Part shown: in pieces, positions 11,583 to 62,142 of the stretch | Numbering within the stretch: position 1 is the first letter of the stretch | Layout: every line of letters begins with the position of its first letter | Source: Cellulomonadaceae bacterium | GTDB lineage: Bacteria; Actinomycetota; Actinomycetes; Actinomycetales; Cellulomonadaceae | Assembly: GCA_031256435.1 (NCBI GenBank) | Contig: JAIRQO010000009.1 | Location: forward strand, 1-64,000 | Length of the DNA: 64,000 bases | Reading direction: 5' to 3' | The notes under the pieces: model-generated | The model's database searches: none | Told to the model about the DNA's origin: nothing | Seen by the model: the letters and a program-made list of their open reading frames with translations, nothing else | Translations under genes and position numbers: made by a program

Positions 11583-12374
11583 ATGACTCACACCCATGCA
11601 GAGCCGCCCACATCCTCGTCCCTCGCAGACGTTCTGCGGTTCATGAAGCGTGGAGTGTTCTTTGGAGGCGCCGGCGTATCCACGGAATCCGGCATTGCGG
11701 ATTTCCGCTCCGAGGACACGCAAGATATTGCCGAGGAGTTGTTTGGGTTCCCTCCCGAGGTCATTCTCTCCATCGAGTTTGCGCGGTACAACCCGGTGAC
11801 GTTCCACCGATATTTTCGCGAGCATTTGGTGGACCGTGACGCCAGGCCCAACGCCGCCCACAAGGCTCTCTCCTTGCTCGAGTATCGGGGAACGCTTGCG
11901 GCCGTGGTCACGCAGAATATTGATGGTTTGCACCAGCAGGCTGGCTCCCGCACCGTTCTGGAACTGCACGGCTCGGTGTGGCGGCACTACTGCGTGGACT
12001 GCAATGCACGGTACACGCTGGATTGGACCATGAATCCGGTGAACTGCCGCGCCCCAGAACGGGTGGTCCCCACGTGTCCGGCAGTCATTGGCACCACGGT
12101 GTGTGGCGGCTGGGTGAGGCCGGACGTGGTCCTCTACGGCGAGCCGTTGCCCTCCACCATCGTCGCCGCAGCAGCCGAAGCCATTCGTACCGCTGACGTG
12201 ATGATAGTGGGCGGAACATCGCTAGTGGTGCAACCGGCCGCGGGGCTCCTCGGTTATTTCCGAGGCCACACCCGCGCCATCATCAACTTCGACGAAACGG
12301 CCTTTGACGCGCAAGCCGATCTGGTCATCCACGCCCCCATCGGCAAAACCCTCGCCGCCGCCCTTGCCCCCTGA
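11583..12374 (+). CDS. Sir2-family NAD-dependent protein deacylase / ADP-ribosyltransferase (sirtuin)
   Basis: GGAGVSTESGIADFRSE, TQNIDGLHQQAG, ELHGS catalytic His, C-x2-C ... C ... C zinc ligands, GGTSLVVQPAAGL. Confidence 0.9.
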   Translation: MTHTHAEPPTSSSLADVLRFMKRGVFFGGAGVSTESGIADFRSEDTQDIAEELFGFPPEVILSIEFARYNPVTFHRYFREHLVDRDARPNAAHKALSLLEYRGTLAAVVTQNIDGLHQQAGSRTVLELHGSVWRHYCVDCNARYTLDWTMNPVNCRAPERVVPTCPAVIGTTVCGGWVRPDVVLYGEPLPSTIVAAAAEAIRTADVMIVGGTSLVVQPAAGLLGYFRGHTRAIINFDETAFDAQADLVIHAPIGKTLAAALAP

Positions 12375-12429
12375 ACACCCCCTGCCCACCCCATTGCCCA
12401 CCACCCGCCTACCCCGAAGGAGTCCATCC

Positions 12430-13626
12430 ATGACCGCAACCACACCCACCATCGAATCTCCCGCCGCTGCTGCCTCCGCCGTTGAGGCCACTGCCTCCAC
12501 TGAGCCTGCTGCGGAGGCCCCCTCCGTTGAAACCACCACCGTGAGGCCACAGATCGTTTCTGTGGGGGTGGCGGAGGAAGCCAACCTCGAGGACATCCTG
12601 TGCGTCTCCTGGCGCAATCACAAGGCTAGCTCTCATCGCGGCAGTCCCTTTGTCCGGCTCTATTTCATCAAGGACAACGCGGTGTGCCAAGCCACCGCCA
12701 AAGAATACATTGACAGGCAAGACCTGTTTTTCATGCTCAGGCCTTTGGGGATTCGCCCTGGTGATACTAGGTCCCTGCAAAGGAACATTACGGGCCTCAA
12801 GGACCGAGACGTAGAGTGCACAGAGAATGGAACGCTGACAATCACCCACGCCGGTCAGCGCTGGCGTATCAATGACAACTGGCTTCGCCTCAGCGCCGGG
12901 GACATCCGCAAGCTTCGCGAGCTGCGCGGGGAAGAACTCCAGCCTCTCGAAGCCTCGGAGGGTGGCGATGAGACCTCCCAGACCGCCGAGTCACCCAAGC
13001 AGGTGGAGCCTTCTGAATTGGTTCATGCTCTCCGAGCGGTCCGCAGGGAACTCAAAGCCACCAAAGAAACCAACCGGGACCTGCGCACTCAACTCGATCG
13101 GCTTGCTGGTGTTGAGCGTGGACAAAGAACGGCGCACGCGGCGAGCCTGAAGAACAACCACGCGGTGATTCAGAAACTCCTGACGCTTTTAGCAGGACCG
13201 GTAGATCCTGATGAATCCGCAACCGACGAGCAAGGCGAGAAAAGTAACGCCTCTAACTCCGGTGACCAGATTCGGCGCTCACGGAGTGATGCGAGTACGG
13301 ACACGCAGCGTCCCGTACCTGTCAAGGGAACCGATATTGCAGCAGAACTCGTCAATGCCGGCATCCGACTAGAAGCTCGCCGTCACTATTGGTGCCCTGG
13401 AAAGGTGTGCTCCTGCGGCGCGTACTCCAAGCTCAACGTTCCAGTCATGGCCATGAACATTTGGATGGACAAGCACCGCACCGAGGCTCTCGCCGACCTC
13501 ATGGAACGCGTCAGGAAGGTTCCCACCGTCCCGAAGCGGGCCCTCGTGCTCGGCAAGCGTGGGGGACGCATCACCATGACGTCCGTGGAAACCACCCCTG
13601 GAGGAATCACTGAGGAGGATCTCTGA
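12430..13626 (+). CDS. Unknown protein with low-complexity N-terminus, coiled-coil middle and Cys-rich C-terminal segment
   Basis: ATG at 12430 after the sirtuin stop; SELVHALRAVRRELKATKETNRDLRTQLDRL coiled coil; CPGKVCSCGAYSKLN; stop is 1 nt before the next ATG. Confidence 0.6.
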   Translation: MTATTPTIESPAAAASAVEATASTEPAAEAPSVETTTVRPQIVSVGVAEEANLEDILCVSWRNHKASSHRGSPFVRLYFIKDNAVCQATAKEYIDRQDLFFMLRPLGIRPGDTRSLQRNITGLKDRDVECTENGTLTITHAGQRWRINDNWLRLSAGDIRKLRELRGEELQPLEASEGGDETSQTAESPKQVEPSELVHALRAVRRELKATKETNRDLRTQLDRLAGVERGQRTAHAASLKNNHAVIQKLLTLLAGPVDPDESATDEQGEKSNASNSGDQIRRSRSDASTDTQRPVPVKGTDIAAELVNAGIRLEARRHYWCPGKVCSCGAYSKLNVPVMAMNIWMDKHRTEALADLMERVRKVPTVPKRALVLGKRGGRITMTSVETTPGGITEEDL

Positions 13627-13627
13627 A

Positions 13628-14926
13628 ATGAACAACTACGCCACTCCCGTCTCTGAACGGCCACACACCACTGCCGTGTCCAGTTCCACAGCCACCGTCA
13701 ACGCCACAGCCTCCGTCAGCGCCACGGCGCCATTCGGGATTAAGGCGGAATCCGATATTCGGTTGCCCCCGCACGCAACGCGTGCCGCCTTCAACCAGAT
13801 TGTTGCGGACGGCCAGTACCCTCACCTTGTGGGGAACCGGAAACCCGGAGGCAAGCGGGCCGGCCTTGACAGCCCCATGGCACTGCTCCCCCACGGTGCT
13901 GACGTGGTGAGAACTTCCGCGCACAGCCAGTTGGACTCTGACCACTCCGTGACCGGAACACGCGTGGTCAACGTGCTGGCCAAGGTGCCCCAAGGCTACA
14001 TGTTTGCCGAGGTGGACGAGTTGGGCGTGGAAGTGCGTGGCTGTGGGGGCAACCAGGAGGAGATCTTCGAGGTGGTGGCCACAGCCCTCGGCCGTGCCCC
14101 TGCCCCTCCTGCAAAGGATGTGGGCAACACCGTCCCTATCAAAACCTGGTACTTAACAGGATCCGGTGCGCAGTCTCAACGCTCCCGTATTGAAGTGCCT
14201 CGGTGGGCAGACATTGCCCGGAACTATCCCGTTCCCACGGCGCTGAATCTTGCTGATCTCATGCATGTGGAGCGGCCCCAGAACCAGGGACGGCTCGTTT
14301 TGTGGCATGGCGCACCCGGCACGGGGAAAACCACCGCGATACGAGCCATGGCCCACGCGTGGCAATCCTGGTGTGACATTGCCTACCTTGCCGATCCCGA
14401 GCGCGCCTTTGCAGACACGGGATACATGATGGAACTGTTGTACGAGGCCGGAAAGTTGCGGCCCAAGGAAGGCCCGGCACGGCATCTGCTGATCGTCGCG
14501 GAGGATTCCGACGAGTTCCTACGGGCCGATGCTCGCAGGACCGCCGGAGCCGCGCTAGGGCGTTTGCTCAACCTGGCCGATGGCATCCTGGGTCAGGGCA
14601 GCAACGTGTTGTTCCTGCTCACCACTAACGAGGAGTTGCGGGCCTTACATCCTGCCCTCGTCCGCCCCGGACGAGCTCTGGCCACCGTGGAGTTCCACAG
14701 GTTTGACACGGCAGATGCCAACGAGTGGTTGGCTGACTCCCCTGTTTTGAAGAAGGTCACCGCAGGCGGGGACACTGCAGACGGGGACACTGTGGGGACG
14801 GCCACCGTGGCTCCTCGCGTGACGGCCCCCGCCACCTTGGCTGAACTGTATGAGCAGCTCGGTACGGTGAAACGCATCCAGAGTCCGGAACTCGTGTCCG
14901 CTACGCCCACGGGGATGTACCTGTGA
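13628..14926 (+). CDS. AAA-family ATPase (DUF5925-like)
   Basis: 432 aa; Walker A LWHGAPGTGKTTAIRAMA, Walker B-like HLLIVAEDSDEFL, sensor LLTTNEELRALHPALVRPGR. Confidence 0.75.
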   Translation: MNNYATPVSERPHTTAVSSSTATVNATASVSATAPFGIKAESDIRLPPHATRAAFNQIVADGQYPHLVGNRKPGGKRAGLDSPMALLPHGADVVRTSAHSQLDSDHSVTGTRVVNVLAKVPQGYMFAEVDELGVEVRGCGGNQEEIFEVVATALGRAPAPPAKDVGNTVPIKTWYLTGSGAQSQRSRIEVPRWADIARNYPVPTALNLADLMHVERPQNQGRLVLWHGAPGTGKTTAIRAMAHAWQSWCDIAYLADPERAFADTGYMMELLYEAGKLRPKEGPARHLLIVAEDSDEFLRADARRTAGAALGRLLNLADGILGQGSNVLFLLTTNEELRALHPALVRPGRALATVEFHRFDTADANEWLADSPVLKKVTAGGDTADGDTVGTATVAPRVTAPATLAELYEQLGTVKRIQSPELVSATPTGMYL

Positions 14927-15036
14927 GGACCCGTCCGGCCTGTTCATCGTCGTCGAATCATCAACCTCCCCACCACAACCACCACACCCACCCCTGGCAT
15001 TCCATCCGGGAATGCCACAACCCCAAGGAGAACACC

Positions 15037-15183
15037 ATGTTTGGTATCAAGAAGAATGACGATGTTCGGTTCTACTGCGGCATCACCGGCCACCAGTACA
15101 ACGGGAGCAGCCCCGTTGGCGCGTGGGAGCGTGCGTGGATCTGTGTCAAGTGTGGTGACGTCAAGGACAAACTCTGGAACTAG
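15037..15183 (+). CDS. 48-aa small protein with possible zinc ribbon
   Basis: MFGIKKNDDVRFYCGITGHQYNGSSPVGAWERAWICVKCGDVKDKLWN; preceded by aaggaga. Confidence 0.55.
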   Translation: MFGIKKNDDVRFYCGITGHQYNGSSPVGAWERAWICVKCGDVKDKLWN

Positions 15184-15321
15184 GGCGTCAGCCACGGTTC
15201 GCTGCCGCTGTTCACTGTCGCTGTGCCGTCATGGCCGGCGGTGGTGGACCGTGACGCCTGGTCATCGTCGCAGAATCATCACTCAGCACAGACACCAACA
15301 GACCACCACACAGAACAACGA

Positions 15322-16587
15322 ATGGAGAAACGCATGGACAACAGCACAGGTGAAAGAGACAAATACGCGGAGATTGAACGGTATGCGGCGCGCGTTCGCG
15401 GATGCATACTTGGTGGAGCCATTGGCGATGCCCTGGGGTGGCCCGTAGAGTTCACCAGCCTCCCAAAAATCCTCGCCCAAACCGGACCCAAAGGCGTGCG
15501 CGGCTACCTACCGATGTACGCAACCAAGGCTGACTATCTGGCCAGCCTTCAGACTGACCTCTCCACCCCCAACGAGGCGAAGCCGGTCAGAAATGTGTAT
15601 GGCCATGTCACCGATGACACGCAGATGACCCTGTTCACCATGGATGGGCTCATCCGGGCTGGTGTGCGCCTGGACAAGGGGATTGGCTTCAACACCAACC
15701 TGATCTCCCTCGCCTACGATCGCTGGCTTGACACTCAGCAGCGGCAGGGACCCAACCCGGACCGGGATGACGTCTACTGGATATCACAGTTGGGTTGGCT
15801 CGATCAGCACCACTGGCTCTATGTCCGGCGTGCCCCCGGGAACACGTGCTTGCGAGCACTGAAACAGGCTCGCAAGGGGAAAGGCGCCGTACCCACGGAG
15901 TGGAACTCGTGGCCAGCGGAGAACAACTCCAAGGGTTGCGGCGGCGTGATGCGGGTGGCCCCCATCGGACTGGTTCCTTATGCCAGTGATCTGCGCTGGG
16001 CGTACGACGAAGGTGCGCGGGCAGCAAGCTACACGCACGGCCACCCCACGGGTCAGGTGGCCTCGGGCGCACTCGCGGCAATCGTCGCAGGGATGGTCCA
16101 TCACGGGCAAGATCTCCCTACCGCCGTGAGCACCACTCTGGAGATCCTAGAAAAGGTGAAGCACCACGAGGAGACCACCGAGGCCATCAAGGCTGCCGTG
16201 GCACTGGCTGATAACCACCGGGGCAAGCCTGAAAGTATTGGCGTCATTGAGAAACTCGGGCAAGGGTGGATAGCCGAAGAGGCTCTTGCCATGGCCCTGT
16301 ACGCAGCGCTCAGGTACCCCGAACCCCATCAGGTTCTGGATGCGCTGAGTGTGGCGGTCACCCACAATGGAGACAGCGACTCCACCGGCGCCATCTGCGG
16401 AAACATCCTCGGCGCGCTCCATGGAGACAGCGCACTGCCTGCCGAGCTCGTCTTCCGCGTGGAGGGACGCGAGACGATGCTGGCCCTCGCGGATGACTTT
16501 ATCTACGAGTTCACCCAGGCTGGGCGGCTTCATGACGGCGGCTCCAAGGCCAACACTGGCTGGGAACAGCGCTATCCGCCGCACTAG
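15322..16587 (+). CDS. ADP-ribosylglycohydrolase (ARH/DraG) family protein
   Basis: GCILGGAIGDALGWPVE, VTDDTQMTLFT, GCGGVMRVAPIGL, HNGDSDSTGAICGNILGALHG: ARH metal-binding motifs. Confidence 0.9.
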   Translation: MEKRMDNSTGERDKYAEIERYAARVRGCILGGAIGDALGWPVEFTSLPKILAQTGPKGVRGYLPMYATKADYLASLQTDLSTPNEAKPVRNVYGHVTDDTQMTLFTMDGLIRAGVRLDKGIGFNTNLISLAYDRWLDTQQRQGPNPDRDDVYWISQLGWLDQHHWLYVRRAPGNTCLRALKQARKGKGAVPTEWNSWPAENNSKGCGGVMRVAPIGLVPYASDLRWAYDEGARAASYTHGHPTGQVASGALAAIVAGMVHHGQDLPTAVSTTLEILEKVKHHEETTEAIKAAVALADNHRGKPESIGVIEKLGQGWIAEEALAMALYAALRYPEPHQVLDALSVAVTHNGDSDSTGAICGNILGALHGDSALPAELVFRVEGRETMLALADDFIYEFTQAGRLHDGGSKANTGWEQRYPPH

Positions 16588-16589
16588 GC

Positions 16590-16701
16590 GCGTACGGCAG
16601 CTTGGCTGTGCGGCGAGCGGGCCGCGCGGCGTACTGGCCGTGCGGCGTACTGGCTGTGCGGCGTTCTGGCCGTGCGGCAATCTGGCTGTACGGCAACTGA
16701 C
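16590..16701. repeat. Seven-copy 16-bp degenerate tandem repeat
   Basis: gcgtacggcagcttgg|ctgtgcggcgagcggg|ccgcgcggcgtactgg|ccgtgcggcgtactgg|ctgtgcggcgttctgg|ccgtgcggcaatctgg|ctgtacggcaactgac, exact 16-nt period. Confidence 0.85.
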
Positions 16702-16739
16702 CCCACAGATCAACTCACCACGCAGAGAAGGAAGAACTG

Positions 16740-17354
16740 ATGACCACTGAGAACACCACAGCACCTCGTCAACTGACCACCCTCCTGGGTTGCGTCACGC
16801 TTGCAGACCTCCTGCAGACGGTGGTCCACCTCAAGAACGCCGGCGTTGCGGTGAAGGGTTCGGCTGACGCTGCGATTGACGCTTCGGTTGACGGTGTGGT
16901 TGGCGCTCCAGACTCCCTCGCTGCGTTTGCCAGTGCGCCCGGGATGTTTGTTGCCACGGCCAGCGCCACAGAGCCGGCCTGCCGCGGGCGCAGTGCCGCT
17001 CAGGCCCTGCTGAACACCCTCGGCGAACGGGATCTCAGCGAGGCTCGCCATGTCATTCTGCACTTTGATGTGACTGCTGACCATGCGCTCCAGGAGTTGT
17101 GGGCCGCCATCGAGGCGATCTGCGCGGCGCTGGCTCCCGAGGCGCACGTCACCTACGCCGTGAACATTGTGGAGCCGAATCTCGTCGAGATGCATCACGG
17201 GTCATACCGTGATGACACTGACAACGAGAACGCGGGCGAAGAGGATGCGAGCGACGAGTCCGTGGGCGGCGACAGTGATGAGGATGAGGATGACTGGGAC
17301 GAGACCCCTGATGCCTCGCAGTCCATGACCATCACCATCCTGATTGCCGAATGA
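16740..17354 (+). CDS. Acidic protein with FtsZ C-terminal-domain-like core and no GTPase domain
   Basis: GMFVATASATEPACRGRSAAQALLNTLGERDLSEARHVILHFDVTADHALQELWAAIEAICAALAPEAHVTYAVNIVEPNL ... MTITILIAE follows the FtsZ_C pattern by eye. Confidence 0.5.
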   Translation: MTTENTTAPRQLTTLLGCVTLADLLQTVVHLKNAGVAVKGSADAAIDASVDGVVGAPDSLAAFASAPGMFVATASATEPACRGRSAAQALLNTLGERDLSEARHVILHFDVTADHALQELWAAIEAICAALAPEAHVTYAVNIVEPNLVEMHHGSYRDDTDNENAGEEDASDESVGGDSDEDEDDWDETPDASQSMTITILIAE

Positions 17355-17388: not shown

Positions 17389-17530
17389 GCCCCCAGGTTC
17401 TTGGCAAGCGGAGCGCAGTCGCAGAATCTCGGGTGGTTGAGCCAAGCGCCTCAGCGCCGACGGTCGAAACCCTCTCCGCCTAGCGAGATTCTGCGAGGCC
17501 CTACGGGCCCGCAGAATGACGGTTGGTGAC
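17389..17530. repeat. MITE/REP-like intergenic element, 5' end degenerate
   Basis: gcaagcggagcgcagtcgcagaatctcgggtggttgagccaagcgcctcagcgccgacggtcgaaac ... gagattctgcgaggccctacgggcccgcagaatgacggttgg. Confidence 0.7.
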
Positions 17531-17640
17531 GAGGCCCCACTCAACACTCTGCCGTGGAGTATCGCGCACCCGATGCTGTCTCGACTACATAAGTGGAGGC
17601 CCACAACCACGTGGAGCCCAGACCAAGAAGGAACACGATA

Positions 17641-18666
17641 ATGGCAAGGGAAGTCAGCAGAACGTTTGGCGAGATCAGAAGCATTAGTCAGGCAGATGAA
17701 CGTCTAAGTATGTGGGGAGAACGTGAGGATGCTATCTCACGCGTCGGTTCTTTCTCTCACGCTTGGGGCGACGCCAAGAGAGAAGGACGAAACCTCGGCG
17801 TGAAGTTTGATGAGGATGACAACGTGATTCTCGATGAGGAAGGCCAAATCGAGGATAGCGGAATCTCTATGAAGGAGATTGAAGAACGGCTCGATACAAG
17901 TCATATGTTTACAGTGACGGCGTTCACCGAGCCTGGAAAAAACTATGATGTTATTGAGGGACAAATGCCCCTTGATAACGATGACCAGACAACAAGGCTT
18001 ATTTGGGAACTTGACGAGTTTGGTTTAGAATACATTTCAGTTGATGGACTGTATCAGTTCGGTGGAGTAGGCGACCCGGACTTGGAGGATTCGTTCGCTG
18101 TATTCCTTCCCTTGTTTTTGTTTGACAGAGATAGACTTTTTGAGGTCGCTGAATATTTCCGAAGGGCATACACTCAGCAATCAGTGTTGATTCACGAAGC
18201 GGGAAAGAATAATCCTGCGTATTTGATATTTGGCAACAAGAGAATCACTGATGTTGGCTATCTCCATTCAGATCAAGAAATTGTCAATGCGCTAGAGGTA
18301 TGGAGCAAGCACAACGAGTCTCCTTATGCGTTCACACCCCCGGACTTTGAGAAGCCTAGAGTTTGGGGCGGCGAACCGGATTTTGAGCATAGAACCCCCA
18401 GCGATGATTTGGAAGGGCCGGAATACGATCCCAGAGACGACCCTGAGCATCCAGACTATGACCCTAACTTTGCCAGGTCAGGCGCAAGAAGGAAAGCATC
18501 CATAAACGAGATTCACAATCGTAGGATGCGCCATTGGGTTGCCGTAAAGCCTTATTCCTACAACCAAGCAATGATTAAGAGTTCTTACGACAGAAGAAAC
18601 AGGACAATGAAGGAACGTTTGCTAAAGTCTATCGCTCAGGACAGAAAAGCCGTCAGGCGCCCCTAG
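17641..18666 (+). CDS. Hypothetical protein, DUF3293-like core with charged tail (paralog 1)
   Basis: MAREVSRTFGEIRSISQADERLSMWGERED...MFTVTAFTEPGKNYD...LEYISVDGLYQFGG..EDSFAVFLP; AT-richer than flanks. Confidence 0.5.
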   Translation: MAREVSRTFGEIRSISQADERLSMWGEREDAISRVGSFSHAWGDAKREGRNLGVKFDEDDNVILDEEGQIEDSGISMKEIEERLDTSHMFTVTAFTEPGKNYDVIEGQMPLDNDDQTTRLIWELDEFGLEYISVDGLYQFGGVGDPDLEDSFAVFLPLFLFDRDRLFEVAEYFRRAYTQQSVLIHEAGKNNPAYLIFGNKRITDVGYLHSDQEIVNALEVWSKHNESPYAFTPPDFEKPRVWGGEPDFEHRTPSDDLEGPEYDPRDDPEHPDYDPNFARSGARRKASINEIHNRRMRHWVAVKPYSYNQAMIKSSYDRRNRTMKERLLKSIAQDRKAVRRP

Positions 18667-18807: not shown

Positions 18808-18936
18808 CTGTCATTCTGCGCAAGCGGAGCACCGTCGCAGAATCTCTGGTGGTTGAGCCAGGCGGCCCAGCGCCGACGGTCGAAACCCCTCCGCCCAGCA
18901 AGATTCTTCGAGGCCCTTCGGGCCCGGAGAATGACG
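18808..18936. repeat. MITE/REP-like element with imperfect terminal inverted repeats
   Basis: gtcattctgcgcaagcgg...gcagaatct...ggttgagccaggcg...cgacggtcgaaacc...gggcccggagaatgac. Confidence 0.7.
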
Positions 18937-19055
18937 GTTGGTAACGAGACTCCACTCAACACTCTGCCGCGGAGTACCGCGTAACCGATGAAAACTCGGC
19001 TACATAGGTGAAGGCCCACAACCACGTGGAGCCCAGACCAAGAAGGAACACGATA

Positions 19056-20096
19056 ATGGCAAGGGAAGTCGGCAGAACGTTTGGCGAAATCAGAAGCATT
19101 AGTCAAGCAGATGAACACCTGAGTATGTGGGGAGAACGCGAGGCAATCCCTACGCGCGTGGGGTCTTTCGCTCATGCGTGGACGCATCCACCCACGGACG
19201 TTGCGCCCCGCAAGCCTGTATGGCCCCAAAGCGCTTCAGAGGGTCCGCGAAAGCCACTCGGTCGCATCATCGAAGCCAGTACAATGCAGAGAATCTGGAA
19301 CATGATGGAAACACATCACATGTTCACGGTGTCGGCGTTCAGAAGCCTTCGCAAAACATACGAGGATACCGATGTGGAAGCGGGCCAGTATCAGGGAGAA
19401 CCCATTCCCGGAAACAAAGGCCTGGCCACAGATGACTACGGCAACCCACTTCCTGTGGAGGACCCAGACCGAGAGGCTGAGTATCAACTGAGCACCACCC
19501 TGCCGCTGGGGCACAAGGGTCGAGATGGTGTTTGGTTACCTGAGGAACCTCAACGTTCTCAACAGACACGTCCCAGCGCCCAAGAAGAATGGGATACCTC
19601 CCAGACCGAGGCACTCAAAGTTGAGTTGAATCAATGGAGAGCGTCACATGCCGAGGGCGACTTTGGCTATATTCCCATCGACGGAGGCTATCGTTATAAT
19701 GACGGAACTCCCACCACAGAGGATAGCTTCTGCGTATGGATCAACCCACGTGGTGATCTCGGAGACAAACTATTCGAAACAGCCGAATATTTCAGGTCTG
19801 CCTTCTACCAAGAATCTGTTCTTGTCACCATCGCCGGCAGAGTAAACGAGGCATGGCTCATGTTTGCTCATGGCGAAGAATATTCAGTAGGAACCCTAGA
19901 GGTGGTCACCGAACTTTCTGACGCGATCGAGTTTTGGTCGTCTCATAACAACAGGACGTATCGTTTTGCCAATGAACGTATGAGTAATTGGGACTACTAT
20001 CGGAAATTCGCCGTTGACAGCCAGGGGAAGGCGATGGAGACGTATTACGAGAAGCAGTATCGGGATCACCTGAAAAGGCGAGCTATTTTCCCTTAG
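19056..20096 (+). CDS. Hypothetical protein, DUF3293-like core (paralog 2)
   Basis: MAREVGRTFGEIRSISQADEHLSMWGEREAIPTRVGSFAHAW...MFTVSAFRSLRKTYED...YIPIDGGYRYNDGTPTTEDSFCVW; N-terminus and upstream DNA duplicated from paralog 1. Confidence 0.5.
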   Translation: MAREVGRTFGEIRSISQADEHLSMWGEREAIPTRVGSFAHAWTHPPTDVAPRKPVWPQSASEGPRKPLGRIIEASTMQRIWNMMETHHMFTVSAFRSLRKTYEDTDVEAGQYQGEPIPGNKGLATDDYGNPLPVEDPDREAEYQLSTTLPLGHKGRDGVWLPEEPQRSQQTRPSAQEEWDTSQTEALKVELNQWRASHAEGDFGYIPIDGGYRYNDGTPTTEDSFCVWINPRGDLGDKLFETAEYFRSAFYQESVLVTIAGRVNEAWLMFAHGEEYSVGTLEVVTELSDAIEFWSSHNNRTYRFANERMSNWDYYRKFAVDSQGKAMETYYEKQYRDHLKRRAIFP

Positions 20097-25184: not shown

Positions 25185-27038
25185 CTAGTTCGTCTTTTGG
25201 GTTGGGAGATGAGGTCCAATATATCCAACAACAATAAGGCCAGATCGCGCAGTGTCATCTAGGTAATGCAGGCGGGGGCTGACGAGTCCAGACTGTGCGA
25301 TCTTGAAGTGAGCCATCATTGCAGCTGAACCATCTGGCGAAACACTGGAGGGAACTGTAAAGACTCTGGCATTGAAAAACTTCGGGTTATTCTCAACATC
25401 CTCAGACTCAACGGAGGTATGTTTGTTGGCCGAATAGCCCCGGTAGCCAGCAGGCGTGTTCTGCAGATACCCGTGGACGTCGCAGTTGGCACGACCTTCG
25501 CGCGACGCTTTGGAGTAGTCAGAGAGCGCCAGCAAGGCTCCCCAGGTCTTACCCGCCCAAACACCCATTGGGTCCTGGACATCGAGAGCAGTGGTCTTTT
25601 CTTTGTCGCCAGTGAAACTGATTCCCGGCAACTCTGATATCGATGCCAACAAGTCCACGAATGACGTCGGATAGTCCGGCTCCGAAGTTGCGGAATCATC
25701 GAAAAATGCCGCTGTCGCTAGTTCAGTTCGCAGCAAGACGTTGCGAAGCCTCCGTACCTCTCGCTCCGAAACGGTAAGCGCGCCGAAATTGTCAGCGTTC
25801 TCCAACTGTTCGTCCTCAAGGCGGCGAGTGAGCTCATGTCCCCGGGAGTTGCTCGCTGCAAGATCAGACTTGAGGCCGGTAAGGCGGTCAGCGACTTCTC
25901 GCAACCTCGACTCGGCACCTTGCCCTGCGCGGGCAAGTGCTTCCAAGCGTCTCCAGTCATCAGTACTGGGGTGATCGGTACCCAGCAGCAACTTCATAGT
26001 CGCCATCGCGGCCAAGTAGACTTCGTCGACAACAGTGAGGGTAGGTTCGTCCTTGACAATGCTGTCTACAAGCTCAGGTGTCCGAACTGCCTCATCCAGA
26101 GGCGACGGGTCCAGCATTGAACCATCTGTCCCGCTGGCATTCTCAACAGTTCCTGATAGCCCAGACAAGAGAACGTTGTCCAGATTGGACTCAATGTCAT
26201 CCAAGACCTTTTGAAAATCTGGGGTGAATGAACGCTCAAGCGCATTCTCGAGTGCACGACGTCCCAGAACACCCGCAATCCACTTGGGACTGTCATTCAC
26301 AATTCGGTTCGTCGAGAGAATTCTGTGGCGTTTCGCATCGAGCTCGCTTTCAATGTCAACTCCGGGCAAGTAAGTACGCAACGTTCCGCCACTTACAGTA
26401 TGCAATGCGCCTAGCGATCCCTCCAAGAGCTCAGTTGCATCTGCATCAAGCACATACGATGATCCAAGGCCGGTGGTCTGTCGAAGAAGCTTGCCTACAT
26501 AGCTTGACCATTCGTCATAAGGGAGGCCTGGGGTGGAACCCGCAGCGAAGAGCAATCCTCGCCGGTTTGGATCGGTAATCGCTGCCACAAGCTCAGGGAC
26601 CTGGCCCGCAGTTACAAGCAATGGAACATCAGAAACTGCAGCCAGAGAGTCGTTGACCGACAACCGCGATAGCAGCGTCCGCGCAAGTCGAGGAACCCCT
26701 GCTCGAACTGGTCGGTTGTCTTGTGATTCAGGGCTGTAGATCTCAAGCAGAACCTCAGCGTCCCGATCTGCTATCTCGGGAACATGGATGGTTAGGAGAC
26801 TTGTCCACGTCCCCTCGCTACCCGCTTCATCTACCCTTGCACGTACAGTGGACTCGCCAATGTCAAAGGTGGAGATGCTAGCCGTGGCATTATCGCTAAT
26901 TACGCCAGGCTTGCCCACCCCTATCTTCGAGACATCGTAGCCCTTGTTAAGCAACCACTTATGGAATGCATCAAGTGCTGTTTCTACTACTGAGTCGTGA
27001 TCGTGCACGTCGAAGTGTGCTCTATAGCCAAGTGGCAT
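25185..27038 (-). CDS. Unknown protein, last gene of the SNF2-DUF1156-DUF499 operon
   Basis: 617 aa intact ORF; VPRLARTLLSRLSV...LGALHTVSGGTLRTYLPGVDIESELDAKRHRILSTNRI. Confidence 0.7.
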   Translation of the reverse strand: MPLGYRAHFDVHDHDSVVETALDAFHKWLLNKGYDVSKIGVGKPGVISDNATASISTFDIGESTVRARVDEAGSEGTWTSLLTIHVPEIADRDAEVLLEIYSPESQDNRPVRAGVPRLARTLLSRLSVNDSLAAVSDVPLLVTAGQVPELVAAITDPNRRGLLFAAGSTPGLPYDEWSSYVGKLLRQTTGLGSSYVLDADATELLEGSLGALHTVSGGTLRTYLPGVDIESELDAKRHRILSTNRIVNDSPKWIAGVLGRRALENALERSFTPDFQKVLDDIESNLDNVLLSGLSGTVENASGTDGSMLDPSPLDEAVRTPELVDSIVKDEPTLTVVDEVYLAAMATMKLLLGTDHPSTDDWRRLEALARAGQGAESRLREVADRLTGLKSDLAASNSRGHELTRRLEDEQLENADNFGALTVSEREVRRLRNVLLRTELATAAFFDDSATSEPDYPTSFVDLLASISELPGISFTGDKEKTTALDVQDPMGVWAGKTWGALLALSDYSKASREGRANCDVHGYLQNTPAGYRGYSANKHTSVESEDVENNPKFFNARVFTVPSSVSPDGSAAMMAHFKIAQSGLVSPRLHYLDDTARSGLIVVGYIGPHLPTQKTN

Positions 27039-27068
27039 TTGACTTATCCTTCCAGGATTACCGACGAG

Positions 27069-30000
27069 TTAGTCCATCGACCAATCATCGTCACCGAATC
27101 CCAGTGTCTTGAGGTTTTCGCGGATCGCAGTTCTCTGGTCCTCCGTCAGTTGATCTAGGTGACTTGACTCGATGTCGAGAGAGACGCGGACCGCCACCCC
27201 GTCGCTGACGAAGTGGGAGATGATCTCGTCGTAAAGTTGGCCGACATCGCGGACCAGCCTTGTCGTGTTCAGCGACCTGGTGGCGTGGAAGCGCGTCGGA
27301 GTGACTGTTGTCGTCGAGCCGTGGCCTCCGGTGTGGCCAGATCGTCTGGCGCCACCGGTCTCGCCACCTGAAGGCGCGCCGCCGCTCGTCCCAGTCTGAG
27401 CACCACTGGACGGCTCGCCGCTCTCTTCGTTCTCCTTAGCGAGCTCCTCGTCGATCTGCGCCTGCGCGACCTTGGGATCGACCAGCAAACCCTCACGAGC
27501 AACGGCAGTGGGGCTCCTAAGGGTCAGTCCATTGAACCGTCCGTGGCTGTAGCCGTCGGCGTACCCGAAGCCATCAAGGTCAACCACTACGACCGTGTCC
27601 ATATGGTAGATGGCGTCAAACACAACCTTTGGCTTGACCACCTTGGGCATGTAGACGTACTGACTAAAGTACTGCTCCAAGGCAGCGATCGGCACGTAGG
27701 GATTCTCAGACCAGAGATTCAGCCGGTCGATCTGCTGACGGAGCAATGTGGGCGAGAACGTACGCTGGACGAATTCGGCAGCATCTGCTTTGCGGGTGAC
27801 TCGTTCCACGAGAGTGCCATCACCATTCATTGAGATCGCTTCAATCTCTATCTTGGCGGCCCCAGGTTCCTGGTGGGGAACCAGAATCCAGCGATACGCC
27901 TCACGGATCGACCCAGAGACTGCCTGGAGCGCCTGTTCGACCCGAGACTCCGCTACCCGCACGTTGTGCTGATCGAGGTTGAGCGCATCCTTGCTCTCCA
28001 GTATCGACTCCCAAGCCATGCGTTGGCGGACGTTCGTCAGGAGGGTGTCGACTCGATCCACATCCGGGGCGAGAAAGAGCAAGCTGTTCTTGTGGATGCG
28101 GGCGTTGGTGCCTCGTTTGCTGAGGAAGTCGAGGGCGGCGAGTTCCGCCTTCGATGTGCCCCGCCGGGTATATGCCCGGTCGGTACCGAAGATCACCAGG
28201 CCGATTTCGGCGCTATCGTCCACGTCACTGCTGGTGGCGGGCATGCGATGAACGCGCTCAAACAGACCCTTGTCGGCCTCGAGGCGGATGGTCTTGGCCA
28301 GTTCGTCGGCGACCTCGTCGTCTTCGTAGTTGATGGCGCGCTCTTGAACGATTTGGGCAACGGTCTGCTGGAGCGACAACCAGTAGCGGTCGCGATCGCG
28401 GTTCATGTACTTGCCACGCTCGCCCAGACGACGGAGACCATCGCCTACATGGGCCGGGTTGTCACCTGGATAAGTCGAACCAAGTACGACGCGACGTTGC
28501 TCGATGCCGCGGTTCGGCGCCTCTGACCCAGTCCGTTCCCGAAGGTTCGCTAGCGGAGCCGTCCCTAGGAAGACACATCGCGCTGCGCGCTTTGTTGCCA
28601 TTAAGCGGCCGAGGATCGGGATCTCCCGGTCGACGGTGTCCGCAGTTGACGCTTCGCCAGCGATGTCGGCGTCGACGATCGGTTTCCAAGCGTCGGGTAG
28701 GTGGCTTGCTAGCTCGTCAAACACCTTGGGGTTGTCGAGCGGCACGGAGGCCGGCAGGATCATCGGTGCGGTGTCACCGCTTGCCCACAATGCCTGGACG
28801 ACGGTGGCCATCAGCCGCAAGACACCGCGAGTCCTTTGGAATCGTTCGAGCGTTGACCAGTCCTTATAGAGCCTGTCGAACAGCTCCGGGTGGATAGGGT
28901 AAGCAGTGAGCATCGTCTCCCGGTACCCCGGTTGGCCGACCTCGCTTGGGACCTCACCCGTATGGCGCTGGTAGTGCTCCATGAACCTGCGAACAACGGT
29001 GTCGCGTGCTGCAAGCTGCTCGCGGTCGAACGGCTTGAAGATACGACGACGGACGATCTCGTAAGACTCCGCAATAGTTGCGGGTTGCCAAGGTGACTCG
29101 ACGCGGTGGATCACTGAACGGAGTCGGCGCAGCGACTCGCGGCCGGCTCGGCCACCGAGCTCGGTGGAGTTCTCGATTTCGTCGTCATCCCCTGGCATCT
29201 CCCTCACGGATGAGGAAGCGGGAAGCGAAGCGAGCATCAGTGCCGTCGGTACTGACTTGACACCCTCGGTCAGGGATTGCACGAAGGTCATGTGCGCATC
29301 GAAGGTGCCGGCTGGTCGGTCGGGTGATGACCAAAGTTGCCGCAAATAGGCGACCCACTCGTCGATCAGAATGACGCACGGGCTGTACTCGGCGATCAGG
29401 TTTGCCAGAACCGTAGTTGGGGGTGGGGCGGACGCCTCGTCAAAGCGACGCACCATCTCGTAGCCATCTGGGCCACCAAGCTGATAGGCGAGTTCGCCCC
29501 ACATGGTGTTTGTGAAGGTCCCGTCAGGCTTGTCGTTGCCGAGCACAGATAGGTCGTTGCCCACCAGTACAGCTCGGTTGATGTTCGCCGGCAATGTGAC
29601 GGCATCGCTGTCGTCAAGCAGCTCGGTGACACCCGACAACTCCTCTGGGGCAATGCCCGATGCCAAGTGATAGACGGCCAGGAGCGAGTGAGTCTTGCCG
29701 CCGCCGAACGTCGTCATGAGGTCGACAACTGGTTCGCCGCCTAGGCCGCTGAAACGGCGTGCAGCTTGCTCCAGCAGGTAACGCAGGCCCCTCGTCATGT
29801 ATGTTCGGGCAAAGAACTCGCGGGGATCCTGATATTCGGGTCTCGCGACCCGTTGATGGACCTGACGGAGATCGGCTGCGAACTGGGCCAACTCGAAGGT
29901 CCCGCTGAGAACGTCGTCATGCGGTTCGACGGCGTCACGCCAAGCAGGGAGACCCGCCGAGTCGAGTTGAACCGAGAGCGACCTCTCCTGAGCTCGCTGA

Positions 30001-30446
30001 ATCCTCTTCTGATCGTCTTCGAACATCATCCGGCGGAATGTCCGGCGCATTTCATCCGCCTTGTCGGCCTGCTCGACAGCGCCGATTGCGCGCAGGATGT
30101 GCTCACCGTCCATGAGGACGCGCTCGGTCCGCTCCGACGTGACGCGTTCATTGTGAGCCCACTCCTTTCGGGCATCCCAGAGCGCAGACACGGTTCGACG
30201 GTCCTCGTAGGTAAGGCAGTCGTTGAACACGTCGTGCCACTGCTTGTCGAACACCCAGAACAAGTATGCAGGATCAGACTGGTTAGGAGTCGACCCTCGG
30301 CCCGACAGGCCGGCCGTCTGGCCAACGACCTTCACCCAGTCGCTGCCGTACCTGGTACTGAGTTGGGTCACGATCCAAGGCCCAAGCCCATCAGCCACTA
30401 GGTCAAGCACCCGGCCGACCCGTTCCTTGTTGGTCAACGATGGCAT
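27069..30446 (-). CDS. DUF499-family AAA ATPase with Swt1-HEPN-like N-terminus
   Basis: GGEPVVDLMTTFGGGKTHSLLAVYHLASG (DUF499 P-loop), CVILIDEWVAYLRQL; N-term VGRVLDLVADGLGPWIVTQLSTRYGSDWVKVV; start at MPSLTNKE. Confidence 0.85.
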   Translation of the reverse strand: MPSLTNKERVGRVLDLVADGLGPWIVTQLSTRYGSDWVKVVGQTAGLSGRGSTPNQSDPAYLFWVFDKQWHDVFNDCLTYEDRRTVSALWDARKEWAHNERVTSERTERVLMDGEHILRAIGAVEQADKADEMRRTFRRMMFEDDQKRIQRAQERSLSVQLDSAGLPAWRDAVEPHDDVLSGTFELAQFAADLRQVHQRVARPEYQDPREFFARTYMTRGLRYLLEQAARRFSGLGGEPVVDLMTTFGGGKTHSLLAVYHLASGIAPEELSGVTELLDDSDAVTLPANINRAVLVGNDLSVLGNDKPDGTFTNTMWGELAYQLGGPDGYEMVRRFDEASAPPPTTVLANLIAEYSPCVILIDEWVAYLRQLWSSPDRPAGTFDAHMTFVQSLTEGVKSVPTALMLASLPASSSVREMPGDDDEIENSTELGGRAGRESLRRLRSVIHRVESPWQPATIAESYEIVRRRIFKPFDREQLAARDTVVRRFMEHYQRHTGEVPSEVGQPGYRETMLTAYPIHPELFDRLYKDWSTLERFQRTRGVLRLMATVVQALWASGDTAPMILPASVPLDNPKVFDELASHLPDAWKPIVDADIAGEASTADTVDREIPILGRLMATKRAARCVFLGTAPLANLRERTGSEAPNRGIEQRRVVLGSTYPGDNPAHVGDGLRRLGERGKYMNRDRDRYWLSLQQTVAQIVQERAINYEDDEVADELAKTIRLEADKGLFERVHRMPATSSDVDDSAEIGLVIFGTDRAYTRRGTSKAELAALDFLSKRGTNARIHKNSLLFLAPDVDRVDTLLTNVRQRMAWESILESKDALNLDQHNVRVAESRVEQALQAVSGSIREAYRWILVPHQEPGAAKIEIEAISMNGDGTLVERVTRKADAAEFVQRTFSPTLLRQQIDRLNLWSENPYVPIAALEQYFSQYVYMPKVVKPKVVFDAIYHMDTVVVVDLDGFGYADGYSHGRFNGLTLRSPTAVAREGLLVDPKVAQAQIDEELAKENEESGEPSSGAQTGTSGGAPSGGETGGARRSGHTGGHGSTTTVTPTRFHATRSLNTTRLVRDVGQLYDEIISHFVSDGVAVRVSLDIESSHLDQLTEDQRTAIRENLKTLGFGDDDWSMD

Positions 30447-30447
30447 G

Positions 30448-33165
30448 CTAGAACAGCCTTTCCGATCCTGTGGTTCCAGCTGAACTAACTCGTACAAGTT
30501 CCGCCCATGAACTAATAAGAGCGTTGTATCGCTCTTGATCTGCAGTTCGGGAGTTGCGGACAGCCACTTCATGCAGCCGGTAAGCTAGAGCCATTGCGGG
30601 GTCACGCAGTGCGCCAAGGTGGCCCATAAGTTCTGCCGCCGCGACCTCGCCTCCGCCGTCAATCAGACGATCAGCCAGATGATGAACTGCCTCCCACGCC
30701 GTCGGTGTGCGATCGTCCTGAGGGGTCCACCTACGGTCGAGGTTGGTGGGGGGAGTCAGCTGTACTTTCCCTGCTTGACTCGAGACCAAGCCGGCGCGGA
30801 CGACGTCGTCTACTGAGATACCCAGTGGCCTCGCAAGCTGATCGGCATCGCCGAATGGGCCCTGCCCCCAACCAAAAGTCGCCCACCATTGCGCTGCCAG
30901 TCGGGAGGTCGCGTCGAGATCACCTTCTTGCTCGTCGAGCACCTCGCCAAGCACGGAGCTGATCAACGTAAGTGCTTGATCCACCCCGACACGTGAGCCT
31001 GCCTGGTCCAAGACTGCTCGATAACGTGAATACACTCTCATTCCCGGTCCCATCGCAGCTTGGCCGAGATCTACGGGTAGAATTGAAGTTGCCTGAAGTT
31101 CTTTTACCGAAATGCTGAGCTCTCTGCGAAGAGTTCTCGCAAAGTCAGATAGAGACGTGGTGCCAGCAGACTCAGGTCTAGCTCGGCAAACCATTGCGAT
31201 ATATGAAGCCACAGCATTTGAGGCCTGGGCTCTCATTCTGGTGGATCCAGTTCCGTGGATTGGCCAAGTACCTGTTATCTCAAGATCGGCTTCAACCATA
31301 GCGGTAAGGATTGATGCCCATCGCGTTAGTGCGTCGCCACCGCTCCCCTGCTCCTTTGAGGCATAAACGACAATCATTGGCAGCCCATCGGGGGTCCCTC
31401 GAAGGCTGTTGAACGTCTCCGTGAATCCCTCAATAAAGTATGCACGGGCCGCTGCCATATCACCGCCGTGTCGACCGGGAGAAGCGATCAACTCCAGACT
31501 CTTTGGGGTCAGAATTGTCGAGTATAGATCCGGGAATACCTCGCGTAAGATTTGTCGGTGCCAGAGATAAAAGTAATCCGAAACATCAGCATATCCGATC
31601 GCTTCGAAGTATGGTGGATCAGTAGCGATCAGGGTCTGGGCGCCGTGATTGGCTTGTCGAGCGTCCTGAAGCTCAATTGATCCGGTGCCCGCCGGAATCA
31701 AGGGCAGTGCTGCCAACATTGTCTTCACACATTGAATCCAGCTTCCGGCTCCGTCGTCCAGAACTGCCGCTTCCGGGTAATCCCATGTCATAGGTAGGTC
31801 AGGCCTAGCAAATGCTCGTTCAACCTTGCCAGCTCCGGATCTGGAATCGATTTTCCATGGGGTCTCGGTTGAACTCACCTGGGCCCGTTTACCAACAGCA
31901 AGTGCCAAGAAGGTCACGATAGCCTCAGCCCACTTGACGTCACCACCGTCCTCTAGAACGCGGTCGTAAGTTCGACCAACTAGTTCCACGAGCAGGTTCA
32001 AAGTATGAAGCTGACGAGAAGGAAATAGTTGTGCCCAAGTGTCTATTCCGTAGTTGGTGACTCGGATGCCTTGTCCGCGCGGGTCTATTGGCTGATCAAG
32101 AGCAGAGTCGAGTTCCCCAAGCCTTGCGACAGCGTCGATATCCTCGGAGTCTGGGCTCCTAAAGATCCGTCTTCCATTCACTTCCGACACGATTGCCATC
32201 ATTCGCGTCGACAATCGGCCAGTTTGTCCGATTTGCCGTAGGTACGAGGAATTGAGAACACTTGAGCAGTTTAGGCACGCGAATATTCCATCGCCGATCT
32301 TGGGGGGACTTGGAGCTTTTCCAGACACCTGGCGGGAGACAACGTTAAGGTCTATCTTATTGCCAAAAATTGTTGGCTCGATCCAAGACAGCTCCCCACG
32401 TTTCTTGCTTAACCACCATGAAGTCGTCAATATGGTGTCAATCCTGCACGCGGGATTTGGACAAGGAGCAGTACGCGCCCACAGCCACGCGACCGGCTTC
32501 TCGCCAGGGCGTGCATGGTATAGAGGCCTTAGCCTCGCCTCCATCTCGCGACTAACCAGGTCGGAGTAATGGCTTACGTCGCGAGCGAGTCCACTTAATC
32601 CCACATAGTGCTCCTGCCCTAAGTCAACCTGGAGTGATTCATTCGCCCGTTTTCCTTTAGCGTTACGGATACGCTTGGGCAGTGGATGTATTGGTTGCCT
32701 ACCATAAAGTGCGGGGGCAATCTCAGTTAACGCGCGGGAAATGAGGGCTGGCACGGGGTTTAAGTCTGAGCCCATTGTGGCCAACCCAAGGCGTTGGGCT
32801 TCGATCAAAGTAGAACCACCCCCGCAGAACGGGTCGGCGACAGAAGGCAACCCTTCCGGGTATTCGCTAACTAGAACGGAACGGGCTTCATCTAAAGTAT
32901 CGCTTGCCGGAACATCAGCCCCGTTCTCAACTAGCCTCTTGATGATCCCCAGCAGGTGCGATCGACCATCCTCGGTCCCAGGATCATCAACAAGAGATGC
33001 GAACAGCAGCGCTCGCCATGCTGGAAGCGGCATTGGCGCAAACCATTTGTGGACATTACGGATCGTCCCGGTCTTCCGGTCTTTATCCGCCTTGCAAGCG
33101 CGATTGATCTCTTCGAGAGGCAGGGCCACTTCGATGAGTTTTCGCTGTCTGAGCGTTTCGGTCAT
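30448..33165 (-). CDS. DUF1156-containing DNA methyltransferase
   Basis: LIEVALPLEEINRACKADKDRKTGTIRNVHKWFAPMPLPAWRALLFASL; DPFCGGGSTLIEAQRLGL; TDPPYFEAIGYADVSDYFYLWHRQIL. Confidence 0.9.
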   Translation of the reverse strand: MTETLRQRKLIEVALPLEEINRACKADKDRKTGTIRNVHKWFAPMPLPAWRALLFASLVDDPGTEDGRSHLLGIIKRLVENGADVPASDTLDEARSVLVSEYPEGLPSVADPFCGGGSTLIEAQRLGLATMGSDLNPVPALISRALTEIAPALYGRQPIHPLPKRIRNAKGKRANESLQVDLGQEHYVGLSGLARDVSHYSDLVSREMEARLRPLYHARPGEKPVAWLWARTAPCPNPACRIDTILTTSWWLSKKRGELSWIEPTIFGNKIDLNVVSRQVSGKAPSPPKIGDGIFACLNCSSVLNSSYLRQIGQTGRLSTRMMAIVSEVNGRRIFRSPDSEDIDAVARLGELDSALDQPIDPRGQGIRVTNYGIDTWAQLFPSRQLHTLNLLVELVGRTYDRVLEDGGDVKWAEAIVTFLALAVGKRAQVSSTETPWKIDSRSGAGKVERAFARPDLPMTWDYPEAAVLDDGAGSWIQCVKTMLAALPLIPAGTGSIELQDARQANHGAQTLIATDPPYFEAIGYADVSDYFYLWHRQILREVFPDLYSTILTPKSLELIASPGRHGGDMAAARAYFIEGFTETFNSLRGTPDGLPMIVVYASKEQGSGGDALTRWASILTAMVEADLEITGTWPIHGTGSTRMRAQASNAVASYIAMVCRARPESAGTTSLSDFARTLRRELSISVKELQATSILPVDLGQAAMGPGMRVYSRYRAVLDQAGSRVGVDQALTLISSVLGEVLDEQEGDLDATSRLAAQWWATFGWGQGPFGDADQLARPLGISVDDVVRAGLVSSQAGKVQLTPPTNLDRRWTPQDDRTPTAWEAVHHLADRLIDGGGEVAAAELMGHLGALRDPAMALAYRLHEVAVRNSRTADQERYNALISSWAELVRVSSAGTTGSERLF

Positions 33166-36100
33166 TTCTGACTCATTTCAGTTGCGTCGTTCCAGAAGGG
33201 GTCCCAGTCGAAGTCGACGCGTGCAGCGCGTGGATCAATTGGGTTGGTCAGGGGGTTTCGGAGGTAGCGGACCGTGGTGCTGTCATCCGGATGAACTCGG
33301 ACAAGGGCGAGGACCGAGTGGTATTGCTTGTTCAATGCAGTGACCGCCTCTTGGCGCGTGAGTTCGAAGGTTGAACCGCCCTCAACCCTCCCCTTGACTT
33401 CAATGAAGTCAAGACCGGTTGGGGTTCGCGACTCGATGTCGTACCCGGGCCAGCTGTGGTGCTTCTCCTCTGGATGATGGTGCAGTGCGTGCTCTACGCG
33501 CAGCACCGCGTCGACGGCGATCCGCTCGATACGCTGCGTCTCGCGCGCGTGGCGATCCGCTCCCTCGGGGTCAGTTAGAGCGTCGAGCCAACCCTGGGTG
33601 AGGACTAGGCAGGCGCCAGTGATCCTTGGAGGGCGTACCGAGATGTCGCGTTCTAGTTGTAGTTCTGCAACTCGACGATCAAGCCGTCGCGTGAGGACGT
33701 CTGCCCGTTCGCGCATCTGCGAGGCCGGCAGACGAGTCCTCTTACCGGCGGCTTCCTGCTCGGCCAGTTCAAAAGCTCGGCGGTCCCAGTAGTTGATTTC
33801 CCGGAGGAGTCGTTCCTTGACAAGCCGCTCGGTTTTGTCGACTTGCTCCTGCACTCGATTGCGGACCTCGTCGGCGTGGGTTCTGGCAACCGTAACTGAT
33901 GCTTGTCGGACGACGTGCTCAACAAGGTCCGCGCCGTTGGCCCACTGCTCGCCGAGAACAGTCGAAGCGGCAGCTCGTTCCTCTGGCTCAGCAGGATCGT
34001 AGTTGGGAATTGGCGATCCAGATAGTGCGATGATTTCGCCATCGGGATTCACACGAAGGTACTGAGCCCGGCGTGAGATGACGCGTGGCTGACCGTTGGT
34101 GCCGGTTCTGCCGTCGGTGACGTCGTGTTCGAGGAGGCAGATAACGTAAGGAGTCGTGTCCGCGTCAGAGCGATCTACAAGAATCGCTCCTCGTCGTAGC
34201 GCATCGTGATTCTTGTCGGAGATGACTCCCATCGTCGCATTCACAAGAGGATGTCCGGGGTGCAGCAAGGTCGCCACAACTTCGCTTCCCGGGATCCGAA
34301 GGTACTTAGGGTCGAAGGCGACGCGGTGGTAGGAGTTGACAACAGGCATGCCTCGGCCGGTGATCCGGTCTTGGTCTTTTACAGCTGACGGAACACGCGG
34401 TATCTCAAACCTGTGGTTCTCGCGCATTCGGAGAGATCCTCCGAGGGCTTTGAAGGCTCTATGGAAGAAGGCTTCTACGTGGTGTGGCTGCAGCCGGCCA
34501 GCCTCCGCCCGCTCCATATCTAGGCGCACGCGCTCGACGTCTGACTCGGCCATCGATGACGGAACCAGCTGGTTCCGATGCAAAAGTTCCGGGATGCCCT
34601 CAGCGATACGCGGCTCGACGATCTCCGCGAGGTAGCGCTCCCGCTCCTCAGGGCTGTCTTCGCGGATCGCCTGGATCATCAGGTCGCGAAGGGCGTTGCC
34701 TTCAAAGAGTTCTCCGAGGATGTCGTAGACCTGACCTGATCCGCCAAGTGCTGCGCGCTGCTCCTCGATCTTGTCGAGGAGGCGGCGGTGCACGTCACCT
34801 TCGCGGGTGTCGTGTGCGAGCAGTGACCACATGAAGCAGGTGTTTGGCTGGCCGATGCGGTGGACTCGACCAAATCGCTGTTCGATGCGGTTTGGGTTCC
34901 AGGGGAGGTCGTAGTTGATCAACAGGTGGCAGTTACGGTGGAGGTTGATGCCCTCGCCTGCGGCATCGGTGGCGATAAGGAACACACACTGGTCGTCCTG
35001 CTCAAAGGTCTCCTTGGCCTTCTTCCGATCCTCGCGCTTGGTCCCACCGTGGATGGTGATCATTGCGTTGTCGCGGCCTAGATGCTGCGTCAACCGTTCG
35101 ACGAGGTCGTTCAGCGTGTCCTTGTGTTCGGTAAAGATGATGACCTTGCGGCGGGCACCGGTGTCATTTCGCATCTCCAAGTCGTCATCTAGCGTGTCTC
35201 GGAGTGCGTTCCACTTCGAGTAGGACGGCGACGCCTTCACGCGCGCAGATGTGTCAACGAGTCCCTCGAGGACGTGGATCTCGTGATGGAGTTCTTCCGG
35301 CGTACGGGACGCGGTGACGCCAGTGGCAGCAGCCTCCTCGCGCGCCTCGCGCTCCTCGTCGGTCAGGTCGTCGTCGTCGTCCGGGTAGTCAACGTCATCT
35401 GAGATGCTTCGCCGGTTGGCGAGAGCATCGCGAAGCTCTTCCTCTAGGCGTCGTTTCCGCCGTTCAAGTGATCTGTGGATTGCTGCGGGCGAGGAAGCAA
35501 GGCGGCGTTGCAGGGTCGTCAGGGCGAAGCCAACGGCGTTGCGGCGACGTTTGTCGCTGGAGTCGTCGACCTTGTTCATCTCGGTCTTGACGTAGTCAGT
35601 CACTGCCGCATACAGGTCCCGTTCCGGGCCTGACAGCTCGTAGGCCACGGTGCTCGCGTAACGGCGCGGGAACAGTCTGGTGCCCTCGAATGTGTAGAGC
35701 TTCTCCTTGGTGAGTCGGCGCATGAGATCTGAGACATCGACGCGACGGGTACCTTCGCGAGCAACGCCTTCGAACCTGTCGGAGTCCAGAAGCGCCATGA
35801 ACAGCTGGAACTGGGACTCCTTTCCTGAGTGCGGCGTCGCAGTCATAAGGAGAAGGTTCCGAGCATGGGCGCCAAGCGCCTCAGCCATCTCGTATCGCTT
35901 GGTCTTTCGTATCTCCCCGCCCCACTCGCTGGCTGACATCTTGTGAGCCTCGTCGAAGATGACGAGATCCCAATCGACGTCGCGTGCCTTGTCCTGTATG
36001 CCCTCGCTGTTGCGTGAGAGCACGTCCAGCCTGGCCAGCCAGAGTCCGCCTCGCGTGAACGGGTTTGCCTCGCCGACTACCTTGTCTCGGGTGAGGACTT

Positions 36101-51973: not shown

Positions 51974-52018
51974 CGAATCTGCTCAATAGAACCACCGAAA
52001 TCTGCTCAGTTAACGCTG
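51974..52018. repeat. Two 23-bp iterons at AbiEii 3' end
   Basis: cgaatctgctcaatagaaccacc|gaaatctgctcagttaacgctg. Confidence 0.75.
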
Positions 52019-62023: not shown

Positions 62024-62142
62024 GGTGGGGAGTCTACCTGCGACTACCGACATGAACTTGTAGGCACCCCCGGCCTGGCTGGCTGGTCGCGTCAGAGGGC
62101 TGGGCAACAATAGTCCCAGGACAGTTAGGTCAGAGGAGCCCC

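Follow-up and report, generated by a model that had tools for sequence, protein, structure and literature searches.

A run of six genes extends along the plus strand from 11584 to 17354 in the 64,000-nucleotide stretch of Cellulomonadaceae DNA analysed here (the window), with gaps of 1 to 152 bp between neighbours (Table 1). It opens with a SIR2-family deacylase, passes through a protein of no family, a DUF5925/AAA ATPase, a small open frame and an ADP-ribosylglycohydrolase (ARH), and closes with a gene for a small acidic protein, P0001. The original prediction had read P0001 as a free-standing relative of the FtsZ C-terminal domain (FtsZ_C), possibly directed at FtsZ itself.

Table 1. Features of the P0001 gene run and of the P0001 reading frame (window coordinates)
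Feature	Position	Strand	Basis
SIR2-family NAD-dependent protein deacylase, first gene of the run	11584-12374	+	PRK00481.1-1, 236.9 bits, over its cut-off
Unknown protein, likely ATG 12430, ends 1 bp before the AAA gene	12430-13626	+	no family
DUF5925/AAA ATPase	13628-14926	+	Pfam; homologues in Actinobacteria and Myrna-type mycobacteriophages
Small ORF with CxxC, between AAA and ARH	15038-15183	+	no family in profile searches
ADP-ribosylglycohydrolase (ARH)	15334-16587	+	PF03747, E 2.5e-69
Tandem repeat of 16 bp in 6 copies, between ARH and P0001	16603-16699	unstranded	sequence
P0001, orphan acidic protein gene, 204 aa	16740-17354	+	open frame, codon usage, Shine-Dalgarno-like AGAAGGAAG upstream
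Compact domain predicted for residues 60-204: strand-helix-strand-helix-strand-strand-(acidic loop)-strand	16917-17351	+	AlphaFold2
Segment with sub-threshold FtsZ_C similarity, residues 83-144 against profile 17-78	16986-17171	+	PF12327, TIGR00065
Acidic insertion, residues 158-188 (31 residues)	17211-17303	+	sequence; pI and charge

The gene run and its surroundings

The ARH frame opens at 15223, its likely start being ATG 15322 or 15334, and the gene is intact, with both metal-site motifs (HVTDDTQM and NGDSDSTG) readable. Its presence beside P0001, part of the original prediction, is borne out by the Pfam match. Against the Tri1 equivalog model NF041672 it scores 45.3 bits where the cut-off is 490, a generic match. 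The 152-bp gap that follows the ARH gene contains the tandem repeat, and it is therefore uncertain whether P0001 is transcribed together with the genes before it.

There does not appear to be a conserved arrangement of these genes elsewhere. Homologues of the AAA gene in 80 Actinobacteria and in Myrna-type phages have not kept ARH, SIR2 or FtsZ_C-like neighbours, and the genes around a 43%-identical ARH elsewhere are unrelated ones. The 33-39% relatives of the DUF5925/AAA protein in the Myrna-type mycobacteriophages (L022, L023) are flanked by a PRPP synthetase/phosphoribosyl transferase gene and a nadV-type gene, neighbours that suggest a tie to NAD salvage.

The wider region includes several genes of phage or defence character. 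Two paralogues at 17593-18666 and 19008-20096 (+), 54% identical over their first ~130 residues, score 24.4 and 27.7 bits against the phage S-adenosylmethionine lyase family PF23780 (cut-off 28) and have a GC content below that of the surrounding genes. Upstream of each lies a copy of a ~200-bp repeat (17395-17595 and 18814-19010), a dispersed REP-like element, parts of which match 63 places in the genome. An HMA-type anti-phage defence locus occupies 25185-36713 (-), with HmaA helicase, HmaB methylase and HmaC ATPase scoring 1247, 676 and 900 bits; a 617-aa gene adjoining it matches HEC-07/NsnC weakly, and just past it lies a second ADP-ribosylglycohydrolase gene (39660-40634, -; PF03747, E 4e-51). 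Also present are an AbiEi/AbiEii-type toxin-antitoxin pair (52010-53709, -) and a restriction gene of the GmrSD family that carries a DUF5655 tail (59915-62110, -).

P0001 is a real gene without detectable relatives

The P0001 frame is a real gene, since it fits the codon usage of the window better than any competing frame: scored on that usage it reaches +0.35 bits per codon, where the two remaining plus-strand frames have -0.59 and -0.90 and no antisense frame exceeds +0.11. A spurious open reading frame is ruled out on these grounds, and the frame stands where it was first placed. GC by codon position is 0.69/0.47/0.72, much as in the neighbouring genes, and the ATG start is preceded by the Shine-Dalgarno-like AGAAGGAAG. 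The option of an RNA element was examined as well, and no Rfam match was found between 8000 and 22000 of the window.

The whole protein has a pI of 4.1 and a charge of about -29, most of it carried by the acidic insertion. Proteins of the FtsZ superfamily are marked by a GTPase domain that carries the tubulin signature GGGTGTG; this signature is missing from the 204 residues, and searches of Pfam and further profile libraries found neither a GTPase domain, in agreement with the original prediction, nor any other domain or enzyme family. No catalytic motif was found either.

No homologue of P0001 turned up in 59 relatives, 396 genomes of the order and 395 of the class, where the searches returned noise and some true FtsZ proteins, or in viral contigs, GTDB genome contigs, phages and plasmids, which were covered by seeded scans that reach close relatives only. 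A phmmer search of the PDB gave acidic-tail matches alone, and nothing like P0001 was found near the AAA-gene relatives in the 80 Actinobacteria or around the 43%-identical ARH. P0001 is so far unique in all collections searched, a lineage-restricted ORFan, and since no homologue was found, no conserved context speaks for any function. The host FtsZ gene is intact and located on another contig, and its product is the least similar to P0001 of 13 FtsZs compared (-2.9 bits); P0001 is therefore not a recent truncated copy of it, and that origin is ruled out.

Resemblance to FtsZ_C

The best match of P0001 among 24,736 Pfam models is FtsZ_C (PF12327), at 20.6 bits and E 5.6e-4, aligned without gaps over 62 residues. 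Both this score and the 21.8 bits of a six-frame scan lie under the curated cut-off of 27 bits. The ftsZ model TIGR00065 matches at E 0.01 in the identical register, and the likeness includes a hydrophobic pattern across the 62 residues.

Several further comparisons point the same way, to varying degrees. On a local HMM built from 14 FtsZ_C sequences of fetched actinobacterial loci P0001 scores 13.7 bits, a value that none of 40,000 shuffles reaches (best 13.6). With hhalign the match to FtsZ_C has a P of 5e-4 and a probability of only 31%, and none of 300 shuffles does better (best 21%). The best S10-like 8-mer in the whole protein, TITILIAE, falls at the extreme C-terminus, a placement with p 0.017 against shuffled tails and p 0.135 against whole-protein shuffles. 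Used alone as a phmmer query on the 396 order genomes, P0001 brings up, along with numerous matches due to chance, true C-domains of FtsZ aligned in register (E 0.002-0.09); two loci whose identity as FtsZ was checked give 16-18 bits.

No sequence support was found in P0001 for an S7 segment. Before S7 in FtsZ sit the T7-loop residues, which complete the active site. When the two proteins are aligned by eye the NxDxxD residues of this loop are not retained, residues 52-58 of P0001 reading GVVGAPD opposite INLDFAD in host FtsZ (GVVGAPDS opposite INLDFADV when the comparison is one residue longer).

How much weight the PF12327 score can bear is clarified by a scan of 120 genomes of the phylum, which gave two other sub-threshold matches at the level of P0001. 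One, of 21.7 bits, lies in a 213-aa frame that encodes a TetR-type regulator; the other, of 20.2 bits, lies in a 301-aa frame that encodes DapA, dihydrodipicolinate synthase, both assignments being made by recognition of the sequence rather than by a profile run. Neither a TetR regulator nor DapA can be FtsZ_C, so these are certainly false positives of the profile, and at 20-22 bits PF12327 can therefore be said to give about one false positive for every hundred genomes. In the 59 nearer relatives, background matches outside FtsZ go no higher than 17.3 bits. Judged against the TetR and DapA proteins of the 120 genomes, the score of P0001 is not clearly above that of unrelated proteins.

In secondary tests P0001 does better than both false positives: 13.7 bits against 11.5 and 7.4 on the local HMM, 31% against 15% (DapA) and 1% with hhalign, and 17.8 against 9.5 and 5.3 with phmmer against FtsZ. 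It therefore stands somewhat above noise and not clearly out of it. Judged on sequence, the resemblance to FtsZ_C is real as a pattern, yet it falls short of significance once the true false positives of PF12327 are taken into account. The line-up first made by eye was reproduced by PF12327 and TIGR00065, and the profile search proposed as its check did return PF12327 as the top Pfam match; the score was nonetheless sub-threshold, equalled by TetR and DapA, and accompanied by a modest hhalign probability. Where an alpha/beta pattern is rich in Ala/Val/Leu, a match made by eye carries little weight, and the TetR and DapA matches (L135/L136) counsel caution in any use of PF12327 below its cut-off.

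The genome scans yielded one further FtsZ_C match of note. In one genome the only such match (L138, G795:C1:549103-549342) lies in a 165-aa frame that lacks the N-terminal domain, an ftsZ gene that is broken or mis-assembled.

Predicted fold

Structure prediction with AlphaFold2 from the single sequence gave a pLDDT of 49 for full-length P0001 and, for residues 60-204, a pLDDT of 66 with a pTM of 0.51, a low-confidence model. FtsZ sequences were kept out of the alignment, as their inclusion would bias the fold. The shorter model begins with strand 69-75 and helix 86-95, repeats this pairing at 104-111 and 118-131, and continues with strands 137-145 and 148-156; past the acidic loop comes strand 194-202, in agreement with the original placing of that loop ahead of the final strand. 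At this low confidence (pLDDT 66) the order and boundaries of the elements agree with S7-H8-S8-H9-S9-S10 of FtsZ at all six elements, and acidic residues lie between the last two strands as they do in FtsZ_C. The place where the insertion falls is the acidic H10 region of FtsZ (PMC8456036). Unlike FtsZ, P0001 has neither a GTPase domain nor H7 or T7 residues, and it adds the 31-residue insertion.

Foldseek searches of the models against the PDB and BFVD gave no significant match. The 60-204 model, the better of the two, has no FtsZ or tubulin among its 50 listed PDB matches; the poorer model lists CetZ (3zid) at rank 39 with E 7. Weak matches, none with a significant E-value, included IF3-C and Alba for the poorer model and Alba for the better one. 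The beta-alpha-beta-alpha-beta-beta topology is common to other folds as well: the IF3 C-terminal domain and Alba-type folds have the identical string of secondary-structure elements predicted in P0001, though no sequence similarity to it. The structural check of the original prediction thus came out mixed, with an element order that fits FtsZ_C in a low-confidence model and no significant structural match.

Interpretation

P0001 is coding, acidic and the last gene of its run. The explanation we favour, at about even probability, is that it is a genuine lineage-restricted protein serving as an accessory of the SIR2-AAA-ARH run, its likeness to FtsZ_C being coincidental or very remote. Residues 60-204 would probably form a compact domain of beta-alpha-beta-alpha-beta-beta type, its last strand preceded by an acidic loop, and the FtsZ_C resemblance would reflect chance within a common topology or a very distant kinship at the level of the fold. 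P0001 would then not be a recent FtsZ derivative, and action on FtsZ would be improbable; its likeliest role would be that of a non-enzymatic subunit, either protein-binding or an acidic adaptor, in the SIR2-unknown-AAA-ARH run, with which it may be co-transcribed. Counted for this reading are the coding character of the frame, the lack of homologues, the co-directional run, the false positives of PF12327, the non-significant Foldseek results, the bottom rank of host FtsZ, and the absence of a catalytic motif or enzyme family. Counted against it are the standing of PF12327 as best of all Pfam models, the outscoring of both false positives, the six-of-six order of elements, the repeat-bearing gap before P0001 and the differing neighbours of the AAA homologues.

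Some of the same evidence would suit descent from FtsZ, with P0001 as a stand-alone, strongly diverged FtsZ_C/BCM-type domain whose acidic H10 region has expanded and whose target need not be FtsZ. The ungapped top Pfam match with TIGR00065 in matching register, the shuffle controls of the local HMM and hhalign, the C-terminal S10-like 8-mer, the phmmer matches to genuine FtsZ C-domains and the low-confidence secondary-structure fit all argue for it, but the score is below the Pfam cut-off and equalled by TetR and DapA, hhalign gives 31% where DapA has 15% and one shuffle 21%, S7 is unsupported, and the better model has no FtsZ in its 50 listed Foldseek matches. We regard this descent as possible but somewhat doubtful, and the same tentative standing applies to a fold-level relationship with FtsZ_C in general. 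A different use of the acidic character, as a DNA mimic or charge decoy whose polyacidic loop binds a basic nuclease or nucleic-acid site in a defence-rich region, fits the low pI and strong negative charge and the nearby HMA locus and SAM-lyase-like genes; it is quite unlikely, given that the acid is confined to one loop rather than spread over the surface and that P0001 has no family match in PADLOC or PHROGs.

The original prediction went further and cast P0001 as a decoy, inhibitor or immunity factor for FtsZ, capping or titrating it or, together with the ARH, shielding it from ADP-ribosylation. There is precedent for parts of this: the ADP-ribosyltransferase Tre1 modifies FtsZ at Arg174, and Tri1, an ARH that acts as immunity against it, reverses the modification (PMC7827354), while the FtsZ C-terminal domain is a known site of inhibitors such as MciZ, which binds at H10/S9 (PMC8456036). 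The P0001 locus resembles the Tre1/Tri1 pair in that an intact ARH gene adjoins the candidate. It differs in that no Tre1-like toxin was found, no ADP-ribosyltransferase toxin gene being seen beside the ARH and no match to the one exotoxin-type family searched, ADPrib_exo_Tox (PF03496), in the genome; its ARH matches Tri1 only remotely, and Tri1 as described involves no FtsZ mimic (PMC7827354). Arg174, moreover, lies outside the FtsZ C-terminal domain (residues 210-316). MciZ and other small FtsZ inhibitors are, like P0001, small proteins and have the C-terminal face of FtsZ as their target, but MciZ is a 40-aa peptide and no copy of a domain (PMC8456036). With the T7-loop residues (NLDFADV in host FtsZ) missing at the aligned position, host FtsZ the least similar of its kind, and neither homologues nor a conserved association elsewhere, the proposal gained no positive support and is very unlikely. 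The other option of the original prediction, that a similar fold is put to an unrelated use, may still hold. Least credence goes to the fullest form of the FtsZ reading, a domain like the FtsZ C-terminal one that stands alone, has its acidic H10 region expanded, is encoded alongside SIR2 and ARH enzymes, and would regulate or shield FtsZ in a pathway linked to ADP-ribosylation.

We return, then, to an orphan acidic accessory of the SIR2-AAA-ARH run as the preferred account. If kinship with FtsZ_C were nevertheless true, P0001 would be a detached C-terminal domain of FtsZ, of a kind not described within the literature searched, and might represent a new way of controlling division.
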